From Verrucomicrobiota bacterium (GTDB lineage Bacteria > Verrucomicrobiota > Verrucomicrobiia > Chthoniobacterales > UBA10450): a stretch of DNA of 37,195 nt. The notes under the pieces were generated by a model. The model was given only the letters and a program-made list of their open reading frames with translations. It was not told the DNA's origin and searched no databases. Where the stretch lies: contig QHNQ01000027.1 in assembly GCA_003218135.1 (NCBI GenBank), positions 1 to 37,195 on the forward strand. Reading direction: 5' to 3'. The translations under genes were made by a program, and so were the position numbers. This document shows, one piece after another, positions 16,509 through 35,918 of this stretch; position 1 is the first letter of the stretch, and every line of letters begins with the position of its first letter.

Positions 16509-16549
16509 TGAAAAAAAAGCTTGTCAGCGCGTTAGAAATTTAATAAGCC
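16509..16549 (+). promoter_or_regulatory. Putative promoter P2 for the TonB-dependent receptor
   Basis: The second copy of the 19-base A-tract/TTGTCA unit (16509-16527). TTGTCA (16521-16526) is again followed after 17 bases by TAAGCC (16544-16549); TAATAA at 16541-16546 is a shorter-spaced alternative -10. Transcription from here would give a leader of about 25-30 bases before the receptor ATG at 16583. The spacing and layout match P1 97 bases upstream. Confidence 0.45.
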
Positions 16550-16582
16550 TGCCGAAACCTAACCAAACCAATGGAGAAACTA

Positions 16583-19816: not shown

Positions 19817-19844
19817 AAGCACAGACCGGAATTTGATTCACAGC

Positions 19845-19875
19845 GGCCGGGCTCCTCGATGGGCCCGGCCGTTTT
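19845..19875 (+). terminator. Intrinsic terminator of the TonB receptor gene
   Basis: GGCCGGGC (19845-19852) pairs perfectly with GCCCGGCC (19863-19870) across a 10-base loop, followed by GTTTTG. It lies 28 bases after the receptor stop. The remainder of 19876-20063 holds no gene that I can support. Confidence 0.8.
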
Positions 19876-20063
19876 GCTTCTGTCTTGATTCCATCTCGAA
19901 CGGAGGTGGGACAGCTGCAGGTGTTGGTGCAAACGATGCCACGCCATTACAATTCCTGAAGCTGCCCGCGGGATTTTTGGGAGAACATTACAAAGATGGT
20001 TACCCTCAGGATTGAGCTATGGGCTTGTTGTTGTATGAATTATAACCACGCAGGGCCACACTC

Positions 20064-22277
20064 TTACTCGCCGGTGTCGCGCAGCGGAAGCGTCCTTCGG
20101 TAAAGATCCATATTCGATTCGAGTTTTTTTGCCAAGGCGTAGTCTCCCTGGCTGGTGGCCAACTGTGCACCGCGTTGCGCTGTTTCAGTTGCTTTGTCAA
20201 ATTGACCATCTTCCGCGTAAGCAGCAGCCAGCAGCCGGTAGATCCGCGGGTTTTTCTCTCCGGAGAGTTTTAGCGCGCGTTCGCCAAGAGCAACTGCTTT
20301 CGGCCCATTTCGAATTGCGTTGTCAGGAAATGTGGCGAATACCCACACGAGATTACAGTAGGCGTCTAGATTGTCCGGCCGCAGCGCCAGTGCTTCCTCC
20401 CATTGCTTTACTGCCTCATCGATTCGCCCCTGTTGCGATAATGCGATACCGAAGTCGTTGTGCGCCTCTGGGCTACCGGGACTGATTTGGAGTTCTTGTT
20501 GGAGATAAGCGATTGCTTGATCCAGCCGACCCTGCCGCAACAGGATCATTGCGATATTGTGATGGACATTGGGTCGATGCGGGTCCAGCTCAATGGCTTT
20601 CTGAAAATGGGCGAGAGCATCATCGAATTGTCCCTTTTGCTCGAGAGCAATGCCGAGGTTATTGTGCGCCTCCACGAATTCCGGCTGGATTTGCAATTCT
20701 CTCTGAAACTCAGCAATCGCCTCATCGATATGCCCATTATTCAGAAGTAGTGTGGCGAGGTTATAGTGCACCCGCGGGCGAACCTGGTGGGCCTCGAGAA
20801 TCTTTTGAAAGTGGATGCCTGCCTCTTCATTTTGTCCAGATAATGAAAGCGCAACACCAACCCGGCTATGGGCATCTACGCTGTCAGGCCGGATCTCTAC
20901 TGCCTTGCGTGCATGAAAGATTGCGTCGTCCAGACGGTTTTCCCGGAGGTCAAGATCGCAGAGGCTAATGTACGCAGTATCGTTCTGCGGATTCACCGCG
21001 AGCGCGTGCGTCCAAAGAGAGCGGCCATCGTGCCAGTACTTGGTTTGTTTCCAAGCGGAGCACATCAAAATCACGACCGCGGAAGCCATTGCTGCGCTGA
21101 GAATGATGCGTCGATGGCGCCACGAACATAATGTGTCGGCCAGGAACCAGGTCCCGAGAATATATGGACCAATCTGCGGCAGGTACGTGTAACGGTCCGC
21201 GTGAGACTGCTCGCCGACCTGAATGATCCCGCTCACCGGCACCAGCATCCCCAAAAACCAAAACCAGCCTGTGAAAAAAAAGGGATACTTGCGTCTATAC
21301 ATAACAGCGGCTGCGCTGATGACGGCGAGGAATAGCGCCGCCACTGACACTTGTACTATAGAAAGGGTGTGCCTTGGGTGCGGGTAAAACACGGACAATC
21401 CAGATGGCCATACGAGTTGTCGCAGATAGACGATTGTCGCGAGTAGGGCATTACCGACTCTCTCCATTAGCGACAAATGGCCGATTGGGTCGATAAAGTG
21501 GCGTTGAGCGAGAATAGTCGCCGCACAAGAAGCAAAAGAAAGAAGTAGCAGGGGAATTTTTTCCAACAAGATTGTTCGAATACTTGCGCGGGCTTGGGTT
21601 GTCCCCTGGTGTCGAAGCTTGTTTGGAGCAGCCGGCGGGAATCGCTTTAGGGGCCAATAATCCAACAGTAAGAAAAGGAATGGAACGGTCACCAACATCG
21701 GTTTGGACATTAGACCGAGCGCGAAAACCAGAAGCACAAGGAGGTACCATCCGAGCGCGAGCGTGTGGACGTATCGAACGTAAGCAGCCAGCGTGAGCAT
21801 GAAAAAGACGGCACTCAACACGTCCTTTCGCTCCGAGATCCATGCCACCGACTCCACATGCAACGGATGAATCGCGAAAAGCGCGGCGACAAAAGCGCTT
21901 CGCCACAATGTGCCCGTCATGCCGTGCAGCACGAGAAACAGGAGGATGACAGCAATCGTGTGCAAAAGAACGTTGGTAAAATGGTGCGCGCCTGGCTGTA
22001 GACCGTGCAGTTGGCAATCCAACATGTGCGAAATGGTCGTGAGCGGATGCCAGTTCCCACCTACGGTGTGGGTAAAGGCCCAAGACACGCTCTTTGACGA
22101 AAGGCCGGCAGCGACACTTGCGTTATCGTAAACGTAATTCGGATCATCGTACGTAACGAACTGGTACGCCGTGGTCTGGCCGAAAACTAACCACGTGATC
22201 ACCGCGAGAACGGCGCATATTCCGAAAATCCCCCTCCAGTTGGGAGTCGCTGCGCCCACAGAAATTTGTTTTGCCAT
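20064..22277 (-). CDS. TMTC-like membrane glycosyltransferase with TPR array (subfamily A, copy 1)
   Basis: A 737-residue protein with about 10-12 TM helices in its first 415 residues, then six TPRs and a cap. A GT-C-like acidic motif YDDP (Asp44-Asp45) follows the first TM helix, in the first periplasmic loop where GT-C enzymes carry a catalytic Asp. Other subfamily A marks are NWHPLTTISHMLDCQL, IHPLHVESVAWISERKDVLS and GLMSKPMLVTVPF...LDYWPL. The nearest known family I can name is TMTC, eukaryotic O-mannosyltransferases with a DUF1736 segment and C-terminal TPRs; a bacterial protein O-glycosyltransferase is inferred. The start is ATG 22277. It is divergent from the His-rich TPR gene. Confidence 0.78.
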   Translation of the reverse strand: MAKQISVGAATPNWRGIFGICAVLAVITWLVFGQTTAYQFVTYDDPNYVYDNASVAAGLSSKSVSWAFTHTVGGNWHPLTTISHMLDCQLHGLQPGAHHFTNVLLHTIAVILLFLVLHGMTGTLWRSAFVAALFAIHPLHVESVAWISERKDVLSAVFFMLTLAAYVRYVHTLALGWYLLVLLVFALGLMSKPMLVTVPFLFLLLDYWPLKRFPPAAPNKLRHQGTTQARASIRTILLEKIPLLLLSFASCAATILAQRHFIDPIGHLSLMERVGNALLATIVYLRQLVWPSGLSVFYPHPRHTLSIVQVSVAALFLAVISAAAVMYRRKYPFFFTGWFWFLGMLVPVSGIIQVGEQSHADRYTYLPQIGPYILGTWFLADTLCSWRHRRIILSAAMASAVVILMCSAWKQTKYWHDGRSLWTHALAVNPQNDTAYISLCDLDLRENRLDDAIFHARKAVEIRPDSVDAHSRVGVALSLSGQNEEAGIHFQKILEAHQVRPRVHYNLATLLLNNGHIDEAIAEFQRELQIQPEFVEAHNNLGIALEQKGQFDDALAHFQKAIELDPHRPNVHHNIAMILLRQGRLDQAIAYLQQELQISPGSPEAHNDFGIALSQQGRIDEAVKQWEEALALRPDNLDAYCNLVWVFATFPDNAIRNGPKAVALGERALKLSGEKNPRIYRLLAAAYAEDGQFDKATETAQRGAQLATSQGDYALAKKLESNMDLYRRTLPLRDTGE

Positions 22278-22449
22278 TCCTAGACCAACTGGACCATTTG
22301 TAGCCTACAGCGTTATCTCTATCAAATCGCTTGCAGGTGTTTGCCTCCGCGCATTAGCAAGAAATCACTTTCGTGTATGTTCGCTTTTACTAATGATCTC
22401 AGGATTGATTTTCGACGCAGTTTGAGGAAAACTTGGTTCCGCTAAAGGT

Positions 22450-24387
22450 ATGCAGCACGTTTCTGCATTCTCAACTCCACAAACCGTGCCGGCCGCGCCT
22501 GCTGCGGCAGCCGGGCGCAAAGCTACCTTATGGATTCTTGACAGCTGGCGCGATTTAATTCTCTACGTTTGTACGCCCCTCTTGCTGGTGCCGATCTTTA
22601 TCGCAGCACAGGGACTTTGGGCTGCCGAAGACATTTACCTTTTTGTCGCTGCGTTCGGCGCAATGGGGCATCACTTGCCAGGGATGATTCGCGCCTATGG
22701 CGATCGCGCGTTGTTTCAGCGTTTCCGATGGCGATTCATTTGCGCACCGATTTTCCTCGTGGTGGTTTGCGCAGCTTTTTCTCTGTGGGACTTGAAAGGC
22801 ATCGTGCTGGTCGCGTTTGTCTGGGGCGTCTGGCATGGAATGATGCAAACGTATGGTTTCTGTCGCATCTACGACGCAAAGGTCGGCTCCTTTGCTGAGT
22901 TAACGCGTCGCCTCGATTTCGCTGTGTGCGGGATCTGGTTTGCAACGGCTGTCCTTCTTTCGCCGCAGCGCATGACCGATACGCTGGAAAGCTATTATGC
23001 GGCGGGCGGGCCGTTTATTCCGCCAGCTCTGCTTCGCGCAGGGCAGCAGGGATTACTGGCGCTGGCAATTGCCATGGCAGGCGTATTTCTGGTGAATTTC
23101 GTCTGGATGTGGCTACAAGGGAGGCGACCAAGCCCGGTAAAGCTGGTGCTTCTTGTGACGAGCATTTCCTTCTGGTGGTACTGCAACAACATCGTCGCTA
23201 GCGTTCTCGTCGGCATCGCGTTATTCGAAGTATTCCACGATGTGCAGTACCTCTCGCTCGTCTGGATTTATAATCGCAAACGCGTCGAGAGCGATAACTC
23301 GATCGGTGGATTCATGCGGTTTGTGTTCCGGCGCAGTGGCGCCTTGGTAGGCGTTTATGTCGGTTTGGTGCTTGCCTATGGTGGGCTGAGTTTGTCCAAG
23401 TCGTATGTCGGCATCGAAGCGGTGAAGCGAATTCTCACTGGAGTGGTGACCGCCTCGGCACTGCTTCACTTTTATTATGACGGCTTCATCTGGAAAGTCC
23501 GCGAGAAATCCACGCGGCAATCTCTTGGCATCAGCGGAGGAACTGTTGATGCTTCAACCAACGGTTTTCTGCCGAGCTGGGCGTTGCACGCCGCGAAGTG
23601 GGTAGGGGTTTTTGCCATACCGCTTACGGCCCTTTGGTTCACCGAGGTGCATTCCGTGCAAGGTAAGCTTCAACGCCTTGGAGCAATTGTTGCTGATCTG
23701 CCGTCCAGTGTGCGGGCGCACGTAAATTACGCGACTGCTTTGCAAGAGGCTGGACGAGCCGATGAAGCGGTCAGCCACTTTACCGCAGCGCTACATTTGA
23801 ATCCCGGCTCATCAAAAACCCATGTCAATCTGGCTTCAATATTAATTGAGCAAGGAAAACTGAACGAGGCGCAAACCCATTTTGAACAAGCGCTGCGAAT
23901 TGAGCCTAACAATGCTGAGTATCACTCGGGCTATGCTTATCTTCTGGAGAAACTCGGCCATGACGACGAGGCGGCGGCGGAATGTGAAGCCTCCATTCGA
24001 TTAGCGCCCAAATCTGCGCAAGCGCATTACAGCTATGGCGCATTCTTGGAAAAGCACGGCAAAGTCGACGAAGCAATTGCGCACTACCGAGAGTCTCTGC
24101 GATTGGATCCGCGTCTGCTCGATTCGCATATTGATCTGGGAAGTTTGCTTTTCGACAAGGGCGATCTGGCAGAAGCAAAAAGCCATTTTCAAAGCGCGTC
24201 CAACATCGACCCAAAACTCGCGCAGCCACATAACTTTCTCGGTAAGGTCTTCATGGCCGAAGGCAACATGACTCAGGCGGTCATGGAATTCGAAGAGGCG
24301 TTGCGTCTCCATCCCGACTTTCCGGAGGCTGAGGAAAACCTGCGCATCGCCAAGCAGAGCGAAAACACGATCTCGCCTTCGCCCTAG
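22450..24387 (+). CDS. His-rich polytopic membrane domain fused to TPR array
   Basis: A 645-residue protein. Residues 25-390 contain about 8-9 TM helices and differ from the neighbouring TMTC-like proteins. Histidines stand at or near helix ends in motif-like settings: MGHHLPGMIRAYGD (His74-His75), VWHGMMQTYGFCRIYD (His129), FHDVQYLSLVW (His263, Asp264) and HFYYDGFIWKVRE (His340, Asp344). This layout resembles integral-membrane metal enzymes such as the Brp/Blh carotenoid-cleavage family, but I cannot confirm homology. Residues about 395-640 carry about six TPRs ending DFPEAEENLRIAK. The C-terminal cap shared by the neighbouring paralogs is absent. The start is ATG 22450. Confidence 0.65.
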   Translation: MQHVSAFSTPQTVPAAPAAAAGRKATLWILDSWRDLILYVCTPLLLVPIFIAAQGLWAAEDIYLFVAAFGAMGHHLPGMIRAYGDRALFQRFRWRFICAPIFLVVVCAAFSLWDLKGIVLVAFVWGVWHGMMQTYGFCRIYDAKVGSFAELTRRLDFAVCGIWFATAVLLSPQRMTDTLESYYAAGGPFIPPALLRAGQQGLLALAIAMAGVFLVNFVWMWLQGRRPSPVKLVLLVTSISFWWYCNNIVASVLVGIALFEVFHDVQYLSLVWIYNRKRVESDNSIGGFMRFVFRRSGALVGVYVGLVLAYGGLSLSKSYVGIEAVKRILTGVVTASALLHFYYDGFIWKVREKSTRQSLGISGGTVDASTNGFLPSWALHAAKWVGVFAIPLTALWFTEVHSVQGKLQRLGAIVADLPSSVRAHVNYATALQEAGRADEAVSHFTAALHLNPGSSKTHVNLASILIEQGKLNEAQTHFEQALRIEPNNAEYHSGYAYLLEKLGHDDEAAAECEASIRLAPKSAQAHYSYGAFLEKHGKVDEAIAHYRESLRLDPRLLDSHIDLGSLLFDKGDLAEAKSHFQSASNIDPKLAQPHNFLGKVFMAEGNMTQAVMEFEEALRLHPDFPEAEENLRIAKQSENTISPSP

Positions 24388-24463
24388 GCCTACAGCGGTA
24401 ACGTGGACACCACTAGACCGCGAATTTTTGTTTGCAGCATTCGTGTGCATTAGTGTTCAGTAA

Positions 24464-26641
24464 GTGGTTAGACTTTCTGAGCGCCGAGCCTGGCTTTGGG
24501 GCCTTCTTCTAATCGCGTTCGTTTTCATCGCGTACGCGCAGGTCTTCCATGCGGGATTCATTTGGGACGATGAATCGCATCTGACCCGGAATCCATGTAT
24601 CGTCGGCCCGCTCGGGCTGAAGGAAATCTGGACCAGCACGCAAGCAGTCTACTATCCGCTGGTGCTGACGACCTTCTGGGCGCTGCACAAGTTCGTCGGT
24701 TTAAATCCGTTGCCCTATCACATCCTGAACGTGTTGATGCACGCAGGATCGGCGGTATTGCTTTGGCGCGTCCTTCGACAGCTCGGCGTTCGTGGCGCCT
24801 GGCTAGGCGCGGCTCTGTGGGCGTTGCACCCCGTGATGGTGCAGTCAGTCGCTTGGGTGACCGAGCTGAAAAATACGCAGTCCTGCTTGTTTTATCTTCT
24901 GTCGAGCTATTGCTTCTTAAATTGGGAGAAGCAATCGCAGATAACACAGACGAGACGAGTAGAGGTCAGTTTGATGTTCGGTCTGTCGCTGCTCTGTTTC
25001 GTACTAGCGACGCTAAGCAAACCTTCCGTAGTCATGTTACCCTGCGTGCTTGCGCTCTGTGTCTGGTGGCGGCGACGGCGAATCCAATGGCGCGATGCCG
25101 TGGCTCTGGCTTCGTTCGTAGCTATTTCAGCGCTTGCAAGCGCCTGGACAATTTGGGAACAGAAATTTCATGCGCGTGCGGTTGGTCCAGATTGGGCGCA
25201 GAACTGGCCTGAGCGTTTAATTATCGCGGGACGGGCAATTTGGTTTTACCTCGCCAAACTGTTCTGGCCTCATCCACTCATTTTCATTTATCCGAGGTGG
25301 CAGCTTCAACCATCGCAATTTACAGCCTATCTGCCGCTACTGCTAGCATTAATGGGTTTGATCGCCTTGTGGTTCCTGCCGGGGAAAGCGGGGCGCGCTG
25401 TATTCTTTGCGGGTGCATACTACGTGATGTCATTGTTTCCGGTGCTTGGTTGTTTTAGTATTTATTTCTTTCGTTACTCCTTTGTAAGCGATCACTTCCA
25501 ATACCTCGCGAGCATGGGTCCGCTTGCGTTAGTCGCCGCTGCTGGCAGTGAAGGATTTAACCGGTTAGGGGTAGCTGAGTCGCTCGGGCGAGGTCTGGCA
25601 TTTCTGCGAGTGGGGCTTTGTACTGTCGTCTTACTTTTACTTGGGATTCTAACCTGGCAGCAAACTGCCGTTTACCATGATCTAATCACCTTGTACACGA
25701 CAACGCTGGCCCAAAATTCCGGTTGCTGGATGGCGCATTACAACCTGGGAATTGCCCTTCGCGATCGTGGCGAAACCGATCAAGCGATAACTCATTATCG
25801 GCAGGCGATCGTGCTACGGCCGGGCTATGCGGAAGCGCATTATAATCTTGGCCGGCTGCTGGCTGAGAAAGGTGAATTCAATGGTGCGGTCGATCACTAC
25901 GAAGTAGCGTTAGCGATCAATCCCGATGATCCGGAAGCGCACAACAATCTTGGCGCTACGTTTGTTCAACAAGGACGTATCGACGATGCGATTGGGCATT
26001 ACCAAAAGGCACTGGCGATCCAACCGGATTACGCCGAGGCGTCATGCAATTTGGCAGACGCGCTCCTTTCAAAAGCCGACATCGATGGTGCGATCATTCA
26101 TTACCTCACGTGTGTGGCCGCTTTGCCCAACCAGCCAGACGCTCAGTACAATCTTGCGAGCGCACTCCTTCGCAAAGGACGAATCGACGAAGCTATTGTA
26201 CACTACGAAAAGGTATTAGAGTTGCTTCCTGAGAATGCGAATGCCCGTGTAAATCTGGGTAGTGCCTTTCTCGCGAAACACCGACTTGGTGACGCCATTA
26301 CCGAATACAAGGAGGCGCTTCGCCTCGCACCGGAAAACGTTGCAGCGCAAAGTAACCTGGCATGGTTGCTGGCAACTTCGCCGGACCCGTCCATCAGGAA
26401 CGGGCCGGAAGCGGTTGTGCTGGCTGAACAGGCCCGGCGGTCATCTGATGGGAAGCCACTTATTCTGCGGATTCTAGCGGCTGCCTATGCCGAAGCTGAT
26501 CGTTTTTCGGAAGCTACAGACACAGCTCGTGAGGCGTTGCGAGCAGCAGATGACCAGGGAAACTCCGTACTAAGCGATCTTCTTCGAAAGGAAATCGTAC
26601 TTTACGAATCCGGTCATCCTTACCATAGGCAGTCGCCATAG
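24464..26641 (+). CDS. TMTC-like membrane glycosyltransferase with TPR array (subfamily B, copy 1)
   Basis: A 725-residue protein with N-terminal multi-TM domain, acidic motif GFIWDDE (Asp35-Asp36), LPYHILNVLMHAGSAVLLWRVLRQLG, WALHPVMVQSVAWVTELKNTQS and LATLSKPSVVMLPCVLAL. A later block, FFRYSFVSDHFQYLASMGPLAL, marks subfamily B and differs from the AHADRYTYLPQIG block of subfamily A. Seven TPRs run from about residue 422 to 650, the most of any paralog here, followed by the shared cap (AWLLATSPDPSIRNGPEAV to LYESGHPYHRQ). The start is GTG 24464 and no strong Shine-Dalgarno is seen. It converges with the next minus-strand gene. An O-glycosyltransferase role is inferred. Confidence 0.78.
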   Translation: MVRLSERRAWLWGLLLIAFVFIAYAQVFHAGFIWDDESHLTRNPCIVGPLGLKEIWTSTQAVYYPLVLTTFWALHKFVGLNPLPYHILNVLMHAGSAVLLWRVLRQLGVRGAWLGAALWALHPVMVQSVAWVTELKNTQSCLFYLLSSYCFLNWEKQSQITQTRRVEVSLMFGLSLLCFVLATLSKPSVVMLPCVLALCVWWRRRRIQWRDAVALASFVAISALASAWTIWEQKFHARAVGPDWAQNWPERLIIAGRAIWFYLAKLFWPHPLIFIYPRWQLQPSQFTAYLPLLLALMGLIALWFLPGKAGRAVFFAGAYYVMSLFPVLGCFSIYFFRYSFVSDHFQYLASMGPLALVAAAGSEGFNRLGVAESLGRGLAFLRVGLCTVVLLLLGILTWQQTAVYHDLITLYTTTLAQNSGCWMAHYNLGIALRDRGETDQAITHYRQAIVLRPGYAEAHYNLGRLLAEKGEFNGAVDHYEVALAINPDDPEAHNNLGATFVQQGRIDDAIGHYQKALAIQPDYAEASCNLADALLSKADIDGAIIHYLTCVAALPNQPDAQYNLASALLRKGRIDEAIVHYEKVLELLPENANARVNLGSAFLAKHRLGDAITEYKEALRLAPENVAAQSNLAWLLATSPDPSIRNGPEAVVLAEQARRSSDGKPLILRILAAAYAEADRFSEATDTAREALRAADDQGNSVLSDLLRKEIVLYESGHPYHRQSP

Positions 26642-26737
26642 ATTGCATTTTGGGTTATTTATGGAGAACGCCGGTTTAAAAGTGATTTATTGGAATCGTT
26701 TATGTGACCGACTACAACTTCCCCGGCGCTGGCAGTC

Positions 26738-28804
26738 CTAATCGCTGAGCGAATTTTCCCGAAGCGGCAAGCGGCTCCGGTACAGCACGAGGTCCTTCTC
26801 GAGACCGTTGGCCAGTTTGGTTTTACCTTGCATGGTAGCGATAACTGAGGCCTGCCGGGCCACGGCGACCGCCTCAGAGAATCGACCGTTCTCTGCGTAA
26901 GCAGCGGCGAGTGTCCGCAGGAAAGAGGGTTCTCTCCCACCTGAAAGCTGCACTGCTTCATTGGCAAAGCCGACCGCTTTGGCGCCGTCGCGAATTGCTG
27001 CGTCGGAAGAGGTTGCCAATAGCCAGGCAATGTTGTTACGCGAGTGGGGATCTTCCGGGGCTAACACCATTGCCTTCTCGTAATGAGCGATCGCTTCGGT
27101 GCGCAAACCCTGTCGTAAAAGAGCGTTACCCAGGCAGGTGTGGGCATCCGCGTCATTGGGTTGGATTTGCAGAGTCTTCTCCCAGTCCGCGATCGCTTCA
27201 TCAAGGCGACCGTTAGCAAAAAGAATGTTCCCGCGATTGTAATATGCTTCTGCGTAATTCGGTACCAACTTGATTGCTTCCTCATAGTGAACCATCGCCT
27301 CATCGGCTAGTCCTTTTAGGCCTAGAGCATCGGCGAGGTTCATTTGCACAAACGCTGAACCGACGTTGTAGTGTGGATCCAGCTTACGAGACCGAATCCT
27401 CGACGCCGCCTCGAAGTGCGAGATCGCTTTGTCCAGTTCACCGCGGTCGATGCATAGGTAACCGAGATTGTTATGCGCAAGATCGTTGTCAGATGTGACG
27501 GCAAGGGCATGGGTCCAAAGCGTTTCGCTGTTCCGCCAGTAGGACGTCTGAATCACTGCTGCCCAGCCGAGCGCCACGATTATTACTCCCACCGCAGCCA
27601 CAGCAAACCGTGCTCTGGACTTATGGACTGCTGTCACGTCAGCAACGAGCCAGACCGCAAGCATAAACAGCCCGATATACGGAAGGTAAGTGTAGCGATC
27701 GGCATGGCCTTGTTCGCCCACCTGAACAAGGCCGATCACTGGGACCAGCATACCGACATACCAAAACCAACCGGTAAAGAGGTAAGGTCGTTGCTTTCGT
27801 AAGACGATTGCCGCCAAAGTGATGGTCAACAGCAATGTCATCGCGCCGGCGCTCTGCCAAATGGTCAGGGTGTTATTTGGATGCGGATAGAAAATGGCGA
27901 GTCGTGTTGGCCACGCTGTTTTCCAGATGTAAATTATGTGACTCACAAGCGCATTTTGCACGCGCCAGAGAATGGGCAACGGTGGAATTGCGCCAGTAGC
28001 ACGTTTTTGTAACACAAATGTGATGCCACAAGCGGCCGCGGAAAGAACCAGCAAGGGAATCTTTTCCAGTAAAAGGCTCGTTATTGTGCGCTTCTCGTTA
28101 CCGGGACTTAAACTTTTGTCGTCCTCTACTGACGATCGTTTTTCAAAACGCTGAAGTGGCCAGTAATCCACAAGGAGAAGGATGAATGGGGCTGTTACTA
28201 GCATTGGCTTTGACATGAGCCCGGCGGCAAACAAAACAACGACCACTAAATAGTGCGTTATGGAGTGGGTGCGTGTATAACGAACGTACGCGCTCAACAT
28301 AAGTAAAAAGAAAACTGCGCTTAACACATCCTTTCGTTCGCTCACCCAGGCGACTGATTCGACGTGGAGCGGGTGAATCGCGAACAACGTTGCCACAATC
28401 GCACTCTTCCATACTGCGCTGGTCATTTGTCGTAACACGAAAAACAGCAGGAGCACTGCGATCGTATGTAGAAGAACGTTCGTCCCATGATGACCGCCGG
28501 CGTTTAAACCGTATAGCTGACAGTCCAACATATGCGAGATAGTGGTTAAGGGATGCCAGTTGCGTGCGTGTGGCGCAGTAACTGCAAGTGCGAGCCCCTG
28601 TATCGTTATCCCAGCTTTGATGACCGGCGCATTATAGACGTACAAATCGTCGTCGAAATTAACGAAGTCGTAGCGGATGGTTTGACCGAATACAGCCAAA
28701 CTGATTGCGACAAGAAACAGACAAATAATGAGAGTCGTTAGAGGACTGTAGAAACGTGTTGTCTTCCTGTCGGTGCGGTGGCTAAATTGACGCTTTTTAT
28801 TCAC
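26738..28804 (-). CDS. TMTC-like membrane glycosyltransferase with TPR array (subfamily A, copy 2)
   Basis: A 688-residue subfamily A paralog. A basic N-terminus leads to TM1, then FVNFDDD (Asp51-Asp53), NWHPLTTISHMLDCQLYGL, IHPLHVESVAWVSERKDVLS, GLMSKPMLVTAPF and the HADRYTYLPYIG block. About four regular TPRs follow. One repeat is a hybrid: HYNVGSAFVQ runs straight into MNLADALGLKG, so a helix B and part of the next repeat seem deleted in frame (about 27300-27375). It ends with the shared cap (LLATSSDAAIRDGAKAV to LYRSRLPLRE). The GTG start at 28804 overlaps the stop of the preceding gene by 8 bases, indicating translational coupling. Confidence 0.78.
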   Translation of the reverse strand: MNKKRQFSHRTDRKTTRFYSPLTTLIICLFLVAISLAVFGQTIRYDFVNFDDDLYVYNAPVIKAGITIQGLALAVTAPHARNWHPLTTISHMLDCQLYGLNAGGHHGTNVLLHTIAVLLLFFVLRQMTSAVWKSAIVATLFAIHPLHVESVAWVSERKDVLSAVFFLLMLSAYVRYTRTHSITHYLVVVVLFAAGLMSKPMLVTAPFILLLVDYWPLQRFEKRSSVEDDKSLSPGNEKRTITSLLLEKIPLLVLSAAACGITFVLQKRATGAIPPLPILWRVQNALVSHIIYIWKTAWPTRLAIFYPHPNNTLTIWQSAGAMTLLLTITLAAIVLRKQRPYLFTGWFWYVGMLVPVIGLVQVGEQGHADRYTYLPYIGLFMLAVWLVADVTAVHKSRARFAVAAVGVIIVALGWAAVIQTSYWRNSETLWTHALAVTSDNDLAHNNLGYLCIDRGELDKAISHFEAASRIRSRKLDPHYNVGSAFVQMNLADALGLKGLADEAMVHYEEAIKLVPNYAEAYYNRGNILFANGRLDEAIADWEKTLQIQPNDADAHTCLGNALLRQGLRTEAIAHYEKAMVLAPEDPHSRNNIAWLLATSSDAAIRDGAKAVGFANEAVQLSGGREPSFLRTLAAAYAENGRFSEAVAVARQASVIATMQGKTKLANGLEKDLVLYRSRLPLRENSLSD

Positions 28805-30716
28805 CGTTAGGCGACAAACCGCGAGTTGTTAAGCTCGGATCGCGCAGCGGTCTGCCAGCTTGATAAAGCGCGATGTTGTTCTGAAGTTCGCTGGCTAAAC
28901 CAGCGTTGCCCTGGCTGTTTGCTAACGCAGCGCCGCGCCGCGCCGTTTCAATTGCCGCGGAGAAACGCCCATTCTCAGCATAGGCGGCCGCCAATATATG
29001 AAAAATCATTGGGATCTGTCCGCCCGAGATTTGCACCGCTTTCTCCGCGAGTTCAACTGCTCGGCCCCCATCTCGAATTGATGCGTCGGGACAGGTGGCG
29101 AATACCCATGCAAGATTGCTCGCGGCATTTCCGTTTGCCGGCTCGATTGCCAGCGCTTCCTGCCACTGCTGAATTGCTTCTTTTACGTGGCCTTGCTGGA
29201 TGAGCGCCGTTCCAAGGATATTGCGTGTCTCTACGTTGTGAGGTTCTATTTCCAAGAATTTACGATAGTGGACCATCGCGTCCTCCAGCCGCCCCTTTTG
29301 AAGAAGGGCCTTTGCGAGGTTGTCATGAGCCGGGCCGTTTTCGGGTCGGAGATCGATAGCTGCTTGCAACCTGGAAATGGCCTCGTCGAGTTGGCCTTTT
29401 TGCAGGAAAATTATGCCGAGGTTGTTCTCCGCTACGTCGTTGTTTTTCGTGACAGCAAGCGCATGAGTAAACAGCGTCTCGCTATCACGCCAATAAGACG
29501 CTTGCATCCAGGCGCTCCAGCTTAACGCGCCAATTACGAATAGCGCGGCAGCGCTCAGAACCATGCGCCGGTGGCGCCACGATACAGACAAGTCGGCAAG
29601 GGCCCAAGACCCAGCAATGTAAAGCCCAATCTGTGGCAAATACGTGTAGCGATCGGCATGTCCCTGCCATCCTACTTGCACCAACCCGATTACCGGTACA
29701 AGCATCCCAAGATACCAGAACCAACCGGTGATGAAATATGGCGCCTTCCTTCGCAGAATAACCGCTGCGCTCGTAATGCTAATGAGAACGGCTAGGGCCA
29801 GAGCGATTTCCCATAGTGGCAGCCGGTTTTCAGGATGAGGATAGAATACCGCCAGGTTTACTGGCCAGAACATCTGCCGGACATAGATTACGTAGGTGAC
29901 TATGGCGTTGTTAATGCGTGCTAACATCGGCAGTTGTTCGGTCCAACCGATTGCGTGTCGTTGCGCCAGAAATGTGATCACACCTGAGACGGCGGAAAGT
30001 GCGATGAGTGGAATTTTCTCGGCGATGGGTGTTAAGAGCTGACGTCCGATGTCTGGTCGCTGAGGTTTGATTCTTCCGAGCGGCCAGTAGTCCAAAAGTA
30101 ACAGCACAAAGGGCAGCGTCACCAGCATCGGCTTGGACATCAGACCAAGCGCAAACACAAACGCTACTATCATGTAGCGCCCGTTCGATGGTGTCCGCGT
30201 GTAATGGACGTATGCGAGCAGCGTCAGCATAAAGAACAGACCGCTGAGCACATCCTTGCGCTCTGCTACCCAGGCAACCGACTCCACGTGCAAAGGGTGA
30301 ATGGCAAACAGTGCTGCCACAAACGCGCTCCGCCAGAGCGCGCCAGCCATTTGCTGGAGCACGACAAAGAGCAGGACCACTGCAATTGTATGAAGAAACA
30401 CATTGGTAAAATGATGTCCACCCGGCTTTAATCCATATAACTGGCAGTCCAACATGTGTGTTATCGTCGTCAACGGATGCCAATTCTCAGAATGAATGTG
30501 TGTGAACGCCCAGGCGATACCGGAGAGGTTAAGCCCACGGGTTATCGTGGTATTTTGGTAAACGTACCTCGGATCATCGTAGTTAACGAAGTCGTGGCGG
30601 AGCGTCTGGCCAAACACGATCCACGTAAAAACTACCAGAGAGACGCAGACACCCACAGTTACCAAAAGACGCGGTGTGTTAAGCCGAGCCATTGATTTAG
30701 ACTTAGTGCGGTGCAT
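28797..30716 (-). CDS. TMTC-like membrane glycosyltransferase with TPR array (subfamily A, copy 3)
   Basis: At 639 residues this is the shortest subfamily A paralog. It carries FVNYDDP (Asp47-Asp48), NWHPLTTITHMLDCQLYGL, IHPLHVESVAWVAERKDVLS, GLMSKPMLVTLPF...LDYWPL and HADRYTYLPQIGLY. Only three TPRs are present (about residues 440-545), then the shared cap (WVFATCPDASIRDGGRAV to LYQAGRPLRD). The start is ATG 30716; ATG at codon 9 is an alternative. It lies 32 bases after the GT39-type gene and overlaps the following paralog, so three minus-strand genes (32392 to 26738) probably form one operon. Confidence 0.78.
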   Translation of the reverse strand: MHRTKSKSMARLNTPRLLVTVGVCVSLVVFTWIVFGQTLRHDFVNYDDPRYVYQNTTITRGLNLSGIAWAFTHIHSENWHPLTTITHMLDCQLYGLKPGGHHFTNVFLHTIAVVLLFVVLQQMAGALWRSAFVAALFAIHPLHVESVAWVAERKDVLSGLFFMLTLLAYVHYTRTPSNGRYMIVAFVFALGLMSKPMLVTLPFVLLLLDYWPLGRIKPQRPDIGRQLLTPIAEKIPLIALSAVSGVITFLAQRHAIGWTEQLPMLARINNAIVTYVIYVRQMFWPVNLAVFYPHPENRLPLWEIALALAVLISITSAAVILRRKAPYFITGWFWYLGMLVPVIGLVQVGWQGHADRYTYLPQIGLYIAGSWALADLSVSWRHRRMVLSAAALFVIGALSWSAWMQASYWRDSETLFTHALAVTKNNDVAENNLGIIFLQKGQLDEAISRLQAAIDLRPENGPAHDNLAKALLQKGRLEDAMVHYRKFLEIEPHNVETRNILGTALIQQGHVKEAIQQWQEALAIEPANGNAASNLAWVFATCPDASIRDGGRAVELAEKAVQISGGQIPMIFHILAAAYAENGRFSAAIETARRGAALANSQGNAGLASELQNNIALYQAGRPLRDPSLTTRGLSPNGE

Positions 30717-30748
30717 GCGGAGCGCTGAAATGTCACGCCAACGGCTGC

Positions 30749-32392
30749 TTAAAGATTCCGTTTGTAAATCAAGATATGGTTCTTTAGGTTCTCGACTGGC
30801 GGCGGAACGTCTCCAAAGAAATAATCGACTTCTTTGGTAGTCATATTCACAAGACCGACTGGGCTGTAGTTTTGCGCGCCATATTCATTTGCCCAGTTGA
30901 ACATCAACCGATCAGAGTCAGGACGCCACAACCAGGAATTAAACATTACCACCGAGACCAGGAACTTTGGACGCGCGCTCTCGATCTCATGAATCATCTC
31001 CTCCTGCATTTGGCGCGCATATTTTTGCGGTTCCATCAGTTCATAAGTGTAAATATATCCCGTCGCGGAATGCCGCTGTGCATAAAAATAAATCTCCGGT
31101 TCTGATCCCAACACCGCGATTGTATCGTCCGGGTTTGTATGTTCTCGCAGATACTCTGCGATCTTAACGGCCGCAGCGAATGGATTAGTGGGATAAATCA
31201 TTCGGCAAGCCTCAACCGGAGAAACTCCAAAGAAGATTTGTTTTTCCCACAGAACTGGCAGGCTTAGCATCGCGCCAAGCAGAAAGAGCGGAAGAAATCT
31301 AACCACAATCGTTCGGCTTGTCAGAAGATCGGACAGTTTGCTAATTGCAAGGCCTACCAGGAGTGAGACCACCGGCAGAATCATAATGAAATAATGAGGC
31401 CGAAAATAAAGTCCCTGGCATACCGCTAAAGCCGAGAACACGAATAGAGCGAGCAAAAAAATTGCGGCGAAGCGGCTCCTTCTGTCCACCATCCCGAACA
31501 CAAGGCCCAGTCCAGCCAATGCCCACAACACCCAGCCAATGTCGAACGCTTCCGCAATCCTAAAGGCGAAGACGTGCATGGCGCGGGCTAAAGGCCATCT
31601 GCCGCTGTATATCGCACCCATAAGGATACCGCCATATTCCGAAGCGTACCTGATTGTCCAAAACCAAAACTTGTCGAGCACCCCTGCGTGCCAGAGAACG
31701 AGACATGTGATTCCAAAGGGAACAATTGCCGCGATCCCAAAGATCAAATTGCGCAGAACGATTTCTTTCAGGGCAAATCGACGGTGGATATCGTTCCAAA
31801 GCAGATAGAGTACTCCAAATGGGATAAATAGGAGCGCCGGCTGTTTCATCAACACACCAATGCCAAAGAGCGCCCCGCTCGCGAATATCCGCCCAATTGC
31901 GTGGTGCTCTGACTCGGAAAGCTTCAGGATCAGTAGCGTCCCACCCAGAACCGGCAGCATGACAAAATTCGTCGCGTGAGCAAACAAGCCAAGCACGGAC
32001 GGACTGGCTGAAAGAACGGCATAACTCATTGCAGCTGCAATCCCGGCAATCGAATTGATTAACCGTCGGCCGAGGAAGAAAATTAGCGCAATCGTCGCAG
32101 CATTAACGAGCAGCAAACCGAAGTGAATACCAAAGATTGTTTGGCCGAATATCGACATGATCAGCGCATAGGAGGCATAGGTTCCAGGAAACTTCATGCT
32201 GTAGGCGAGCGTGTATGGAGGGATCCCTTGCAGCATCAGTTGGCCGGCGTAAGCGTATTCGCCTTCGTCGCGCTCCAACGGAATGTCCAGAAGTCGAATC
32301 CGGATGGCAATCACGAGCCCGAAAACGATCGCGGCGAGGACACACCAGCCGAAACGCAGTGCTTTGCTCTGATTGTCGATTTTATGCGCCAC
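30749..32392 (-). CDS. GT39-type (PMT_2) membrane glycosyltransferase
   Basis: A 547-residue polytopic protein with a GT-C layout: TM1 (about 13-31), then LERDEGEYAYAGQLM, where Asp42-Glu43 match the acidic catalytic pair of GT39/ArnT-like enzymes that use polyprenyl-phosphate sugars. About ten more TM helices follow (PVLGGTLLILKL, GVLMKQPALLFIPFGVLYLLW, FRPHYFIMILPVVSLLVG). A soluble C-terminal domain (about 400-547) follows. No TPRs are present. I chose GTG 32392, preceded by GGAGA about 10 bases upstream. The frame stays open to 32665, but that would overlap the divergent gene and add non-conserved residues. It heads the operon with two TMTC-like paralogs, so it may supply or extend the same glycan. 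Confidence 0.82.
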   Translation of the reverse strand: MAHKIDNQSKALRFGWCVLAAIVFGLVIAIRIRLLDIPLERDEGEYAYAGQLMLQGIPPYTLAYSMKFPGTYASYALIMSIFGQTIFGIHFGLLLVNAATIALIFFLGRRLINSIAGIAAAMSYAVLSASPSVLGLFAHATNFVMLPVLGGTLLILKLSESEHHAIGRIFASGALFGIGVLMKQPALLFIPFGVLYLLWNDIHRRFALKEIVLRNLIFGIAAIVPFGITCLVLWHAGVLDKFWFWTIRYASEYGGILMGAIYSGRWPLARAMHVFAFRIAEAFDIGWVLWALAGLGLVFGMVDRRSRFAAIFLLALFVFSALAVCQGLYFRPHYFIMILPVVSLLVGLAISKLSDLLTSRTIVVRFLPLFLLGAMLSLPVLWEKQIFFGVSPVEACRMIYPTNPFAAAVKIAEYLREHTNPDDTIAVLGSEPEIYFYAQRHSATGYIYTYELMEPQKYARQMQEEMIHEIESARPKFLVSVVMFNSWLWRPDSDRLMFNWANEYGAQNYSPVGLVNMTTKEVDYFFGDVPPPVENLKNHILIYKRNL

Positions 32393-32480
32393 GAAAGCTG
32401 TTTCTCCGATGGAAAAGGACAGCTTGCAACTGAACGATTTCCGTTGCACTGCGTCTCCGCGAATCGCGTTCAATACAGCA

Positions 32481-34562
32481 ATGCTGCGCAATATTCCTAG
32501 ACTCATCACTTCCAAACGCGGTCGCGCCTGGTTCTTTGCCTTGGTTTTGGCAGCCCTGACGATTTTTGCGTATCGGCCCGCGTGGAATGGCGGCTTTATC
32601 TGGGACGATGACGTGTATATAACGAATAACGAATTGCTGACTGCGCCTGATGGTTTGCGGCGCATCTGGTTTTCGCTCGATTCGCCTTCGCAATATTTTC
32701 CGCTGGTCTACAGCACGTTTCGCATCGAGCACGCGCTGTGGGGACTGAATCCGACCGGTTATCATTGGGTCAACCTTCTGCTTCATGCGGCCAACGCGCT
32801 GCTGGTCTGGCGAGTGCTGGCGCGTTTGAACGTGCCGGGGGCATGGCTGGCCGGCGCAATCTTCGCCCTGCATCCAGTGCAAGTGGAATCGGTGGCCTGG
32901 ATTACGGAGCGCAAGAATGTTCTCATGGGGTTTTTCTTTCTGCTGACGCTCCTGGCATGGCTCGCATTTGTTGATGAACGGACGAAGCGGCCGTGGCCCT
33001 TTTACGTGCTAGCTCTCATTTTTTACATGCTGGCGCTTTCGGCCAAGGCAACAGCCTGTACCTTGCCAGCAGCGCTGTTCTTGATTTTGTGGTTACAAAA
33101 GAAGGCCATCAATTGGAGGAGGACTTTCGAGATTCTTCCTTTCCTCGTTCTCGGTCTCGCCATGGGTTTATTAGCCATGTGGTGGGAGCATTATCATCAG
33201 GGGACGAGCCGAGCGGCCATTCCGTTCTTAAGTCCAGTCGACCGGGTTCTCGTCGCGAGCCGGGCTGTTTGGTTTTATGTAAGTAAACTTATCTGGCCGT
33301 CGAATCTAACCTTCATTTATCCGAAATGGAACATCTCAGCGGCGCACCTGTTGGATTACGTCTGGTTAGTGGCCGCAGTTGCGGTCTGCACGGCGATCTA
33401 CTGGTTGAGGCGCTACACCGGACGCAGCGTCGAGGTCGCGGCGGCCTTCTTTGTTGCCACACTTAGCCCAGTACTTGGGTTCATCATGCTCTTCACATAC
33501 CGCTATACGTTTGTGGCGGATCACTACCAGTATTTGGCGTGTATCGGGCCGATCGCCCTTGCCTCGGCGGGGATAGTCAGTTTGGCCGACGCCCTTAAGC
33601 AGCAGCGTGCCTTTATTTGTAGCGCGGCGCTATTTGCAGTTGCGATGTTGGCGATCTTGACTTGGTGGCAAAGCTCAATGTTCGGCGATGTGGAAACGCT
33701 TTGGCGCACTACTCTTGCAAGAAACCCGGAGTGCTGGATGGCTGATACCAACCTCGGCATTGTGCTTCTCGAGAAAGGACAGGTAGATGATGCAATCGCT
33801 CATTACCAGCACGCATTGCAACTGCAGCCGAATTGGTGGGATGCCGAGTACAATCTGGGGACGGCGCTTTTAAGCAAAGGCGAAGTAGACGAGGCGATTG
33901 TGCATAGTGAGAAAGCGGTCACCATGCAACCAAACGATCCCGATGCTCAGGTCGCTTTAGGCAGCGCTCTTCTTGAGAAGAAACGGATCGACGAAGCGAT
34001 AATGCACTACCAAGAAGCGCTTGCAATGCGGCCTGATTACTTTCTGGCCCGGTACGGCCTCGGCCGTGCTCTGCTTGAGAAAGGGGAACTCGATACTGCA
34101 ATCCAGCATTTTCGCGCAGCCCTGTTGATCTGGCCTGAGCATGCAGATTGTCACACCGTCCTTGCTGTTGCTCTCGATGAAAAAGGGGAAACAGCAGAAG
34201 CTATTCAGCATTACGAGAAAGCCCTGGAGATTTCTCCAAAATCCATTCCTGCCCTGACGAACCTGGGTTGGCTAATTGCTACTTGTTCCAATGGATCATT
34301 GAGAAATGGTGCCAAGGCAGTTGAAATTGCACGGCGAGCTGATGAGCTATCCGGAGGCTCCAATCCGATCGTGCTGCGTACGTTGGCGGCGGCGTACGCG
34401 GAGGCTGGACAATTTGGACAAGCGATTGAAACCGCTGGTGCTGCAATACAGCTATCACAGCTGTCAGGTGATCACTCGTTATCTTTGGCGCTCGAGGAAC
34501 AATTGCGTCTTTATCGACTCGGCATTCCATACCGCGAAGCAGCAAAGTTGAAGGAACCATGA
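32481..34562 (+). CDS. TMTC-like membrane glycosyltransferase with TPR array (subfamily B, copy 2)
   Basis: About 693 residues. TM1 is followed by GFIWDDDVYITNNELL (Asp42-Asp44), YHWVNLLLHAANALLVWRVLARL, ALHPVQVESVAWITERKNVLMG, LALSAKATACTLPAALFLI and the subfamily B block YRYTFVADHYQYLACIGPIAL. Six TPRs start at CWMADTNLGIVLLEKG, followed by the shared cap (WLIATCSNGSLRNGAKAV to LYRLGIPYRE). I prefer ATG 32481, where hydrophobic similarity begins; the open frame from 32373 would overlap the divergent GT39 gene. Only 88 bases (32393-32480) separate the two divergent starts, so a shared regulatory region is likely. Function is inferred as for the other paralogs. Confidence 0.78.
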   Translation: MLRNIPRLITSKRGRAWFFALVLAALTIFAYRPAWNGGFIWDDDVYITNNELLTAPDGLRRIWFSLDSPSQYFPLVYSTFRIEHALWGLNPTGYHWVNLLLHAANALLVWRVLARLNVPGAWLAGAIFALHPVQVESVAWITERKNVLMGFFFLLTLLAWLAFVDERTKRPWPFYVLALIFYMLALSAKATACTLPAALFLILWLQKKAINWRRTFEILPFLVLGLAMGLLAMWWEHYHQGTSRAAIPFLSPVDRVLVASRAVWFYVSKLIWPSNLTFIYPKWNISAAHLLDYVWLVAAVAVCTAIYWLRRYTGRSVEVAAAFFVATLSPVLGFIMLFTYRYTFVADHYQYLACIGPIALASAGIVSLADALKQQRAFICSAALFAVAMLAILTWWQSSMFGDVETLWRTTLARNPECWMADTNLGIVLLEKGQVDDAIAHYQHALQLQPNWWDAEYNLGTALLSKGEVDEAIVHSEKAVTMQPNDPDAQVALGSALLEKKRIDEAIMHYQEALAMRPDYFLARYGLGRALLEKGELDTAIQHFRAALLIWPEHADCHTVLAVALDEKGETAEAIQHYEKALEISPKSIPALTNLGWLIATCSNGSLRNGAKAVEIARRADELSGGSNPIVLRTLAAAYAEAGQFGQAIETAGAAIQLSQLSGDHSLSLALEEQLRLYRLGIPYREAAKLKEP

Positions 34563-34649: not shown

Positions 34650-35918
34650 TCAAAGCTCGTTGCGCAAAATTTCAAAAACAGCTGTGCTGTCCAGTACCCC
34701 TTGCAGCGCGTCTGTTCCAGGTCCGCTGCCGAAGGCAACCACGTCTTCCACCGTGACCAGCGCTGATTTCGTGTAGAACGCTGCCGGCTCTGGCTGTTCG
34801 GTTTCCTGAGTGTCGCTTTTGTTTTGGTTTCCGGGGATTTTCGCCGGACCATAGGACTTGGTGCCATGAGGGCCGGTTGCCCACGTGATCCAGGGCTGGC
34901 CAGCTGAGTTAAAGCCCAGCAAGGCTATACCGCTATCTTTGCGAAAAGGAAACCCATTCAAGCTTAGTCCACCCATTGCCAAATCACCGCATACTATGAT
35001 CGTCGATTTTGGCCCACCATAGCTTCGTGCGATACCGACCGCGCGGTCCAGTTCAACTGTTTGGCTGAGGGTCCTTTCTCCGTTGTTTTCCTGTGCTGCT
35101 TTGCGCATTAGCCCTGCATCGACGACAAGAAAATAGCCGCCGGTGTTGTATTGAAGTAATTGGATTGCGCGCCGCACCATATCGGAAAGACTCGGCTGTT
35201 GATTTCTTTGTTCGAGCTGATTTGTGAAGGCCAGGTCTCCATCGTCGAAAACGCCGAACAGTTTCGGTCGACGCCACGCTGGAATTGTTTCCAATTCAGT
35301 TCGTGTTCGAACAATATCGAATCCGTTACCGCGGAGCTCCAACAACAGATCGCGATTATCTTGTCTGTCCCCCCCCTTCGTGATGGGAAGAAACTGCGCC
35401 GCGCCACCGCCCATTGCGATGTCGATGTTGCCCCGGTCTACAAACTCAGCTGCGATTTTGTCCACATCGCTGGGCTCAAGCGGGTGCGCGTAGAAAGCCG
35501 CGCTAGTCGGATCGGTAAGCTTTGTGTCCGTTACCAAACCGATGGCTCGTCCGTGTTCGCGCGCTAGTTCGACAATGTTCTTGATAGGTTTCCCATCTGC
35601 ATTGATCGCAAGATTGTGATTGGTCACTCGCTCGCCCGTCGCGATCGCAGTCGCAGCAGCTGCTTGATCGGGAGCAGCGAAATCCTTGGAATAATTCGTC
35701 ATTAAGGCTGCGTTTGGCATCGAGTCCAGATTCAAGCGCGTCTCGACTCCAGCGGCGTAGGCGCGCGTAGGCGCGAGCCGGGCAGGCGAAAGTCCTTCTC
35801 CGACAAACAAGATAATCCCGAAAGGCTTTCGGATTACCCAGTGCTGAAAATAAAGAACACCGACGCCTGCAAAAACGAGCAGACAAAAGAGCGCGAGCAA
35901 CTGATTGCGCCATTTCAC
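34650..35918 (-). CDS. Alkaline-phosphatase-fold protein, predicted catalytically inactive
   Basis: A 422-residue protein anchored by one N-terminal TM segment (about 6-24), with alkaline phosphatase similarity throughout: DQAAAATAIATGERV, IGLVTDTKLTDPTSAAFYAH, IDIAMGGGA, LSQTVELDRAVGIA, and TVEDVVAFGSGPGTDALQGV near the end. The active site is largely gone when aligned by eye to E. coli PhoA: Asp51 is Glu41, nucleophile Ser102 is Gln85, Glu322 is Asp267, Asp327 is Arg272, His331 is Gln276, His370 is Leu313 and His412 is Val388. Only Asp369 (Asp312) is clearly kept. A binding or scaffold role is inferred. The start is GTG 35918. A G8 run lies within the gene. It is divergent from gpmI. Confidence 0.85.
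   Translation of the reverse strand: MKWRNQLLALFCLLVFAGVGVLYFQHWVIRKPFGIILFVGEGLSPARLAPTRAYAAGVETRLNLDSMPNAALMTNYSKDFAAPDQAAAATAIATGERVTNHNLAINADGKPIKNIVELAREHGRAIGLVTDTKLTDPTSAAFYAHPLEPSDVDKIAAEFVDRGNIDIAMGGGAAQFLPITKGGDRQDNRDLLLELRGNGFDIVRTRTELETIPAWRRPKLFGVFDDGDLAFTNQLEQRNQQPSLSDMVRRAIQLLQYNTGGYFLVVDAGLMRKAAQENNGERTLSQTVELDRAVGIARSYGGPKSTIIVCGDLAMGGLSLNGFPFRKDSGIALLGFNSAGQPWITWATGPHGTKSYGPAKIPGNQNKSDTQETEQPEPAAFYTKSALVTVEDVVAFGSGPGTDALQGVLDSTAVFEILRNEL
35369..35376 (-). repeat. G8 homopolymer inside the alkaline-phosphatase-fold gene
   Basis: Eight C on the plus strand (G8 in the coding strand) encode the Lys-Gly-Gly-Asp region near residues 181-184. A one-base slip would frameshift the protein after about 43% of its length. 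Runs of this length are slippage-prone. Confidence 0.9.

Follow-up and report, generated by a model that had tools for sequence, protein, structure and literature searches.

Organization of the locus

Seven consecutive open genes, all encoding large polytopic membrane proteins as judged from their reading frames and hydropathy, occupy positions 20064-34562 of the window, by which we mean the whole 37,195-nucleotide stretch analyzed (G000:C190 of a 2.75 Mb draft genome that is 86.65% complete). The locus and its borders comprise the following features.

16571-19816, plus strand: TonB-dependent receptor (Plug, PF07715), left border of the locus
20064-22277, minus strand: g1, TMTC-like GT-C/TPR protein of clade A, 737 aa
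22450-24387, plus strand: g2, polytopic membrane protein with a His-rich N domain (residues 1-397) and C-terminal TPRs, 645 aa
24464-26641, plus strand: g3, TMTC-like GT-C/TPR protein of clade B, 725 aa, GTG start
26738-28804, minus strand: g4, TMTC-like GT-C/TPR protein of clade A, 688 aa, GTG start
28797-30716, minus strand: g5, TMTC-like GT-C/TPR protein of clade A, 639 aa, with an AlphaFold model
30573-30578, minus strand: codons of g5 D47-D48, motif M1 (DD), in the loop after TM1
30749-32392, minus strand: g6, PMT_2 (PF13231) GT-C-type transferase without TPRs, 547 aa
32481-34562, plus strand: g7, TMTC-like GT-C/TPR protein of clade B, 693 aa, ATG start at 32481
34650-35918, minus strand: alkaline phosphatase (PF00245), right border of the locus

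The ORF listed for g6 extends to 32665, and the GTG at 32392 matches the start position of several homologs; the TTG start listed for g7 (32373) falls within this long g6 ORF, and the ATG at 32481 was taken instead. Genes g6, g5, and g4 run head to tail with g6 first, there being a gap of 32 bases between g6 and g5 and an overlap of 8 bases between g5 and g4, and g2 and g3 are spaced by 76 bases. The g6 and g7 genes are divergent and lie 88 bases apart, and g1 and g2 diverge as well. Judging from this spacing and orientation, there may be two short operons besides two singly transcribed genes, with g6 probably co-transcribed with g5 and g4.

The initial annotation had read the locus as a run of seven large polytopic membrane proteins, and this description holds, as all of the ORFs are open and each contains from 5 (g2) to 10 (g6) strong hydropathy segments. 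Also borne out were the common N-terminal membrane domain with C-terminal TPRs in five of the proteins (g1, g3, g4, g5, and g7) and a second TPR-membrane architecture, g2 having TPRs but not the GT-C domain of the other five. Given the best E-values of the TPR model in the window proteins, which range from 1.1e-21 (g5) to 7.7e-50 (g3), and the orthologs in related genomes, the array is real and not a chance finding, and it is conserved in part of the genus.

Two clades of TMTC-like paralogs

The five TMTC-like proteins fall into clade A (g1, g4, and g5, all on the minus strand) and clade B (g3 and g7, both on the plus strand), and the earlier division into two subfamilies by motif and strand, with three minus-strand and two plus-strand copies, was reproduced. 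The strings ERKDVLS and HADRYTYLP are found in each of the clade A proteins, and their clade B equivalents are TELKNTQS and SDHFQYL in g3, and TERKNVLMG and ADHYQYL in g7. Among the window proteins, N-domain identity is 51-59% within A, 37% within B, and 24-27% between A and B. All five share a similar C-terminal stretch, and the A versus B identity of the TPR part (37-45%) is higher than that of the N domain, which would not be expected from client-driven divergence of the TPRs alone. As for an exchange of TPR ends between the two clades, a tree of the C-terminal ends was built from the 48 of the 66 A/B rows that fitted a pattern, a set that lacks the window's g1 and g7, and monophyly of B was not rejected (p-AU 0.37). 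As this tree neither shows nor excludes exchange, we make no claim of domain shuffling.

Our alignment of A/B rows comprised 66 ORFs, each 480 aa or longer and matching the N domain, with fragments excluded and the label A or B assigned by best BLAST hit. To these were added 27 other rows, from the 29 loci (L190-L218) of which 27 fitted the pattern, and eight PF08409-matching rows. In the resulting 101-row tree (a "quick" tree, like the others here, with SH-aLRT support only), the 22 B rows form one starred clade and the eight PF08409-matching rows another, and the rows labeled A by best match intermingle with the 27 other rows. Starred ortholog clades were obtained for g5 (13 rows), g4 (10), g3 (10), g7 (9 to 10), and g1 (2), the last of these clustering with a single further row (L065). 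The starred clades of g3, g4, g5, and g7 point to duplications that are older than the genomes compared. Between orthologs, the N domain (69-77% identity) and the TPR part (64-80%) are about equally conserved in seven comparisons, and the TPRs are thus under selection. Moreover, several related genomes retain g3, g4, g5, and g7 as separate orthologs, and these four therefore probably differ in function.

Relationship to the TMTC family and GT-C folds

The N domain is widespread, being present in 45 of the 58 genomes in our search of relatives and in 110 of 240 genomes across the phylum, with the own genome counted in both. The TMTC family model PF08409 (TMTC_DUF1736) found nothing in the own genome up to an E-value of 10, and in the phylum sample it was found in 10 of 240 genomes at E<=0.01 and in 5 of 240 over the curated cut-off. 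Eight PF08409-matching bacterial proteins were used for comparison, of which L182-L186 score over the cut-off (L182 being cut by a contig end) and L187-L189 below it. A profile of 93 A, B, and other N domains matched all eight, with E-values of 2.8e-30 to 1.5e-41 (Z=1e6), and hhalign aligned the two sets over 442 columns with a probability of 100%. On this strong evidence from profile comparison, the window domain and the TMTC-type bacterial proteins are homologous across the membrane domain, with A and B placed as a sister branch of TMTC, and not as TMTC proper.

As regards the GT-C fold, the PMT_2 model (cut-off 26.1 bits) matched g1 (27.6 bits), g4 (28.5), and g5 (27.9) in the genome scan; on whole proteins, g1 (23.5 bits) and g5 (22.4) stayed below the cut-off and g4 was not listed. 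Neither g3 nor g7 had a PMT_2 match, as proteins or in the genome scan, and their GT-C assignment follows from their homology to A. Among the members of the N-domain set, 10 of 27 matched PMT_2 at E<=0.05 (best 8.8e-7). Against the PDB sequences, the N-domain profile found only PP2A B56 (best E 0.036), a match judged by eye to be due to chance. When the full-length g5 model was compared with the PDB by Foldseek, the best 50 of 227 matches (E<=0.001) were all helical-repeat proteins, mostly of the TPR type, with no GT-C structure among them. Because such proteins fill these matches, the membrane domains of g5 and of g2 (see below) are left unplaced by structure, and the GT-C fold of A and B rests on the profiles.

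The likeness to TMTC that had been noted from the sequence thus stands in its layout, in its DD pair, and in its homology by way of the eight bacterial proteins. What did not stand was membership in TMTC proper, for which the PF08409 match and, as described next, the M4 Glu and M5 Asp are absent.

Conservation of the TMTC motifs

Seven TMTC motifs (here M1 to M7) are listed in PMC7801869, where the Glu of M4 and the Asp of M5 are modelled as metal ligands. Loss of the DD pair (M1) among homologs had been named in the initial annotation as an outcome that would count against it; the pair is in fact retained in 64 of 66 A/B rows (A, 42/44; B, 22/22), the other two being gaps. Because the 27 other and eight PF08409 rows were selected by requiring [DN]D and HP, the DD and HP in these 35 rows carry no information. 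The proline of M2 is likewise present in 64 of 66 A/B rows, with two gaps. For M3, the sequence is mostly ERKD in A and E[LR]KN in B, such that Asp is replaced by Asn in all 22 B rows. At M4, in EL3, there is a Lys in 91 of 93 rows and a Glu in none of the 92 readable A, B, and other rows, as against Lys-Glu in 8/8 of the PF08409-matching rows. At M5 (DW, in EL4), the Asp is found in 0 of 93 rows, with no Asp or Glu within two columns on either side and an invariant Tyr next to it, as against 7/8 of the PF08409-matching rows. In the M6 region, P341 is invariant (66/66 A/B rows), and M7 (ERxxY, in EL5) reads DR..Y in 44/44 A rows and DH..Y in 22/22 B rows. Further conservation in A/B was seen at H140 and P141 (64/66), K195 (64/66), and D355 and Y359 (66/66). 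With the M4 Glu and M5 Asp absent, the branch would differ from TMTC in its donor site or its use of metal. Taken with M7, these differences may mean that the donor chemistry differs, or that B is altered.

Predicted membrane topology

In the AlphaFold model of g5 (pLDDT 83.7, pTM 0.76), the helices can be read as 11 TM segments followed by the TPRs, and this is more than the 6 to 8 strong segments from the hydropathy scan of the five TMTC-like proteins. Loops were labeled as inside or outside by hand from this model, leaning on the TMTC topology, and Lys and Arg were denser in the loops labeled cytoplasmic in all five proteins (17/77 inside and 10/157 outside in g5). This distribution, mapped on the g5 model, would place DD and the TPRs in the periplasm, and the topology is accordingly predicted as 11 TM helices with both of these on the periplasmic side.

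The g6 and g2 proteins

With 58.0 bits (E 1.8e-15) against a cut-off of 26.1 bits, g6 is by its sequence a clear PMT_2-type member of the GT-Cs that lacks TPRs. PF13231 was its only Pfam match, at E<=0.01 as well as at E<=0.001, and no NCBIfam model matched. The earlier label of GT39 was therefore not kept, as the PMT model PF02366, whose match we take to be the mark of GT39, was not found. The g6 profile returned a single ribosomal protein (E 0.32) from the PDB sequences, and hhalign of the N-domain set against this profile was weak (probability 12%).

For the N domain of g2, no relative was recognized in Pfam, NCBIfam, or the PDB sequences: the best Pfam or NCBIfam match to g2 was no better than E 0.022, its profile found nothing among the PDB sequences at E<=10, and no GT-C profile matched it. 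In 40 g2 proteins, the residues H74, H75, H129, H263, H340, and H380 are invariant, as are the stretches GHHLPGMIRAYGD, WHG.MQTYGF.RIY, FEV.HDVQYL, and LHFYYDGFIWKVR (dots marking variable sites). Clear matches in the phylum sample number 3 of 288 genomes, own genome counted and all from one order, and a fourth, partial match spans 52 positions (G178, E 0.0046). The named proteins nearest to g2, reaching 93% identity in the N domain, are from MAGs of soil Verrucomicrobia, several of which are recorded as Candidatus Udaeobacter or Chthoniobacterales, and it is this similarity that places the window's genome in the Candidatus Udaeobacter / Chthoniobacterales group. Judging from these sequences, the domain is narrow in distribution and strongly constrained. 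The AlphaFold model of g2 has a pLDDT of 75.5, mostly lower in the membrane part, and helical-repeat proteins, mostly TPR, made up the best 50 of 484 Foldseek matches of the full-length protein in the PDB (E<=0.001). As a guess, g2 could be a metal- or heme-binding membrane enzyme.

Synteny and origin of the array

For the comparison of gene order, 37 stretches besides the window were picked, non-randomly, from the best earlier matches and from contigs of the own genome. A run of alkaline phosphatase, g7, g6, g5, g4, and g3 recurs in the loci of five relatives (L063, L068, L070, L071, and L072), among which L063 and L072 carry split copies and an extra A gene separates g4 from g3 in L070. The syntenic g5 is flanked by a g6 ORF of 390 aa or more in 10 of the 11 loci with sequence there, L061 having a fragment only, and g4 or pieces of it adjoin g5 in 12/12 syntenic loci. 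In four of these 12 (L063, L066, L067, and L072), g4 is split into at least two ORFs, by decay or by assembly error. Genes of clades A and B remain adjacent to one another in the syntenic loci, and B genes lacking an A neighbor occur within the visible stretches of L082, which lies on contig C84 of the own genome, and of L094, in G042. Absent from its place in L070, L071, and L074 is g2. Further syntenic loci are broken off at contig ends.

Six less similar loci (L173, L174, L177, L178, L179, and L181) consist of a TonB receptor, g2, and alkaline phosphatase, with no match to the window GT-C proteins between receptor and phosphatase. Preceding the receptor are o9543 (not reached in L178), o10892, o11629, and o12336, and the receptors themselves share 27-29% identity with that of the window. 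An A-like gene lies outside the segment, beside o9543, in L173, L174, and L177. In L175 and L180, the trio of receptor, g2, and phosphatase is interrupted by a single unassigned ORF, of 830 aa in the former and 464 aa in the latter. Other arrangements include g2 followed by g6 and g5 (L134 and L136), a split g2 followed by an A gene (L126), and g2 between o12336 and o13211 (L115). Within the genus, family matches number from 0 to 16 per genome, fragments counted, and arrays recur elsewhere in the phylum, two examples being G220:C2 and G180:C64, where four matches each lie at 311067-317712 and 13441-22091, respectively.

The survey of synteny proposed at the outset thus shows a gene order kept in part of the genus, and the array is absent from the segment in less similar relatives. 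On the simplest reading of these gene orders, a collinear segment gained the array around g2, loss in the others being a less simple alternative. Most likely, it would have been added by duplications within the TonB receptor-g2-phosphatase segment, with the direction of change being deduced from the comparison.

Proposed function and alternatives

Starting from the homology, motif conservation, synteny, and orthology observed above, the reading we favor, at somewhat better than even confidence, is that the five proteins are inner-membrane GT-Cs of a bacterial sister branch of TMTC that use a lipid-linked sugar donor, with DD activating and the TPRs recruiting an acceptor that is likely a protein, and g6 adding sugar, in an array that arose by duplication and whose paralogs are distinct. 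Here, the N-terminal membrane domain would bind a sugar linked to polyprenyl phosphate, the periplasmic DD loop after TM1 would activate the acceptor, and Lys195 together with the Asp-Arg/His-Tyr motif of EL5 would lie at the phosphate, roles assigned by analogy with those in PMC7801869. Facing the periplasm as well, the superhelix of C-terminal TPRs would recruit the acceptor, for which a protein that is secreted or resides in the envelope is the likeliest candidate, and g6 would add its sugar in the periplasm too. Cadherin domains are O-mannosylated by TMTC1-4 (GT105) and, as the authors of PMC11292533 suggest, recruited by the TPRs of these enzymes; client selection by TPRs is proposed there for TMEM260 also. 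That A and B transfer a lipid-linked sugar appears likely, the catalysis and donor being deduced from homology. The acceptor could be a protein and the client set a separate one for each paralog, as the initial annotation had envisaged, and the sugar could be mannose. A GtrA/DPMS domain (PF04138), the sole type of donor synthase sought, was not found in the 87% complete genome.

PMT_2 also covers GT-Cs whose acceptors are not proteins, and with 24 PMT_2 matches in the own genome, a large share of its GT-Cs probably acts on glycans or lipids. The five could then be GT-Cs that, in the manner of ArnT-type enzymes, decorate lipids or glycans such as lipid A, O-antigen, or capsule, with the TPRs, a general interaction module, anchoring an envelope complex instead of choosing clients, and it fits that no acceptor protein was recognized beside the array. 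We regard this as unlikely yet well worth considering, given that proteins are the substrates of TMTC1-4 and TMEM260, the TPR-fused GT-Cs whose acceptors are known (PMC11292533), and that the TPRs of orthologs, conserved about as well as the N domains, are under selection. Part of the array, B above all, might instead be catalytically dead or altered and act as a TPR scaffold or regulator of an active A, as the His for the M7 Arg and the Asn for the M3 Asp in all B rows, and the side-by-side upkeep of A and B genes, would allow. Such a role seems very improbable, however, when DD and K195 are retained in 22/22 B rows and B genes occur without a visible A neighbor in L082 and L094.

The locus might also be a drifting hot spot of tandem duplication whose copies are redundant and form no special system. 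The variable number of family matches per genome, the broken copies in several relatives, the rearranged loci (L115, L126, L134, and L136), the one ortholog row of g1, and the arrays of such genes in other families of the phylum are all in keeping with this, but we hold it to be improbable in view of the starred ortholog clades of g3, g4, g5, and g7 (9 to 13 rows), the gene order kept in several congeners, and the intact reading frames of all seven window genes. A more elaborate version, to which we give only a slim chance, is a bacterial protein O-glycosylation system of the periplasm with a division of labor, in which the five enzymes, of two chemistries with Arg in A and His in B at the phosphate-contact site, would modify different envelope proteins chosen by their TPRs, g6 would supply a further sugar, and g2 would be a new metal-dependent, TPR-guided enzyme acting on the same clients.

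Comparison with known systems

Apart from PMC7801869, none of the titles listed by our literature search concerned bacterial TMTC-like arrays, and the listed papers were found to give no account of this array, its ortholog-stable paralogs, its setting, the motif differences of the sister branch, or the g2 domain, although we do not claim their absence from print. Candidatus Udaeobacter has been described as a globally abundant soil group (PMC7343977), mutation of TMTC3 is tied to cobblestone lissencephaly (PMC7801869), and PMC11292533 describes how TMTC enzymes engage their substrates as still an open matter. A bacterial array with several ortholog-stable paralogs would give small test cases for substrate engagement of the TMTC type, the missing metal-ligand residues raise the question of donor binding in the A/B branch, and g2 presents an unnamed and nearly invariant membrane domain.

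Among the PMT_2-type GT-Cs (PF13231), g6 is a clear member and g1, g4, and g5 pass the cut-off in the genome scan, but A and B differ in carrying TPRs, and g3 and g7 are unmatched. Caulobacter FlmG resembles the window proteins in having a TPR domain that binds the proteins to be O-glycosylated, in its case flagellins (PMC7591256), but it has a cytoplasmic GT-B domain and N-terminal TPRs, and no homology of the catalytic parts is claimed. TMEM260 (GT117) is, by its description in PMC11292533, a comparable GT-C and TPR O-mannosyltransferase. A further group is that of the prokaryotic TMTC homologs, of which full-length forms are reported in many prokaryotes, for instance AMJ42_05695 (PMC7801869). 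Our examples, L182-L189, have the same order of a GT-C-type domain and then TPRs and share the 442-column alignment with A, B, and the other rows, whereas their M4 KE (8/8), M5 Asp (7/8), and separate clade set them apart, as does their GR[AG][ED] at M3 (GN in 1/8) in place of ERKD or E[LR]KN. With human TMTC1-4 (GT105, PF08409), compared here through published features (PMC7801869) and not as aligned sequences, A and B have in common the DD after TM1, the EL2 motif, the EL3 Lys, the TM9 Pro, the [DE]RxxY-type EL5 motif (in A), the modelled 11 TM helices, and C-terminal TPRs on the side of DD. By the same comparison with published features, they differ from TMTC1-4 in being bacterial, in having no PF08409 match, M4 Glu, or M5 Asp, and, in B, by a His in place of the M7 Arg.

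GT-C content and additional TMTC-like copies

Throughout the 2.75 Mb draft genome that contains the window, 24 matches to the GT-C-type transferase profile PMT_2 were found at E ≤ 0.001, of which 20 exceed the cut-off (26.1 bits) and one more does so together with its neighbours. This is a GT-C-rich genome. TMTC-like copies outside the window include the following.

L081:7668-11729, tandem pair of additional A-like genes on contig C102 of the same genome
L067:1552-5595 and L063:9071-13352, TMTC-like copies that are split, from the relatives G006 and G024

Here, the C-terminal end of the tandem pair is unlike that of the array proteins, and the split copies reflect either decay or assembly error.

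The g2 domain and gene surroundings

22450-23640, +, membrane domain in g2, His-rich and unnamed
13211-16219, large spermine/spermidine synthase-domain protein, adjoining the TonB receptor
L095:9080-11873, second g2 copy, then an ORF of about 283 residues
L173:11754-13226, two ORFs (156 and 305 residues) separating g2 from alkaline phosphatase

The g2 domain is nearly invariant throughout the Chthoniobacterales records found, and contig C173 of the same genome carries a second copy with 61% identity over the protein. We also noticed g2 on two contigs titled as Acidobacteria gp4 and Bryobacteraceae (L120, L165); these are likely binning errors, though transfer may be involved.

In the large protein beside the TonB receptor, the synthase match is above its cut-off, and an MFS match is weak and under cut-off. 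Neither L173 ORF has a Pfam match, and the longer one is Pro-rich at its end and carries a signal-like segment. The L095 ORF gave no Pfam match at E ≤ 0.001; by eye, it resembles ORFs that follow g2 in L118 and L123, and it may be related to arginase-like proteins.
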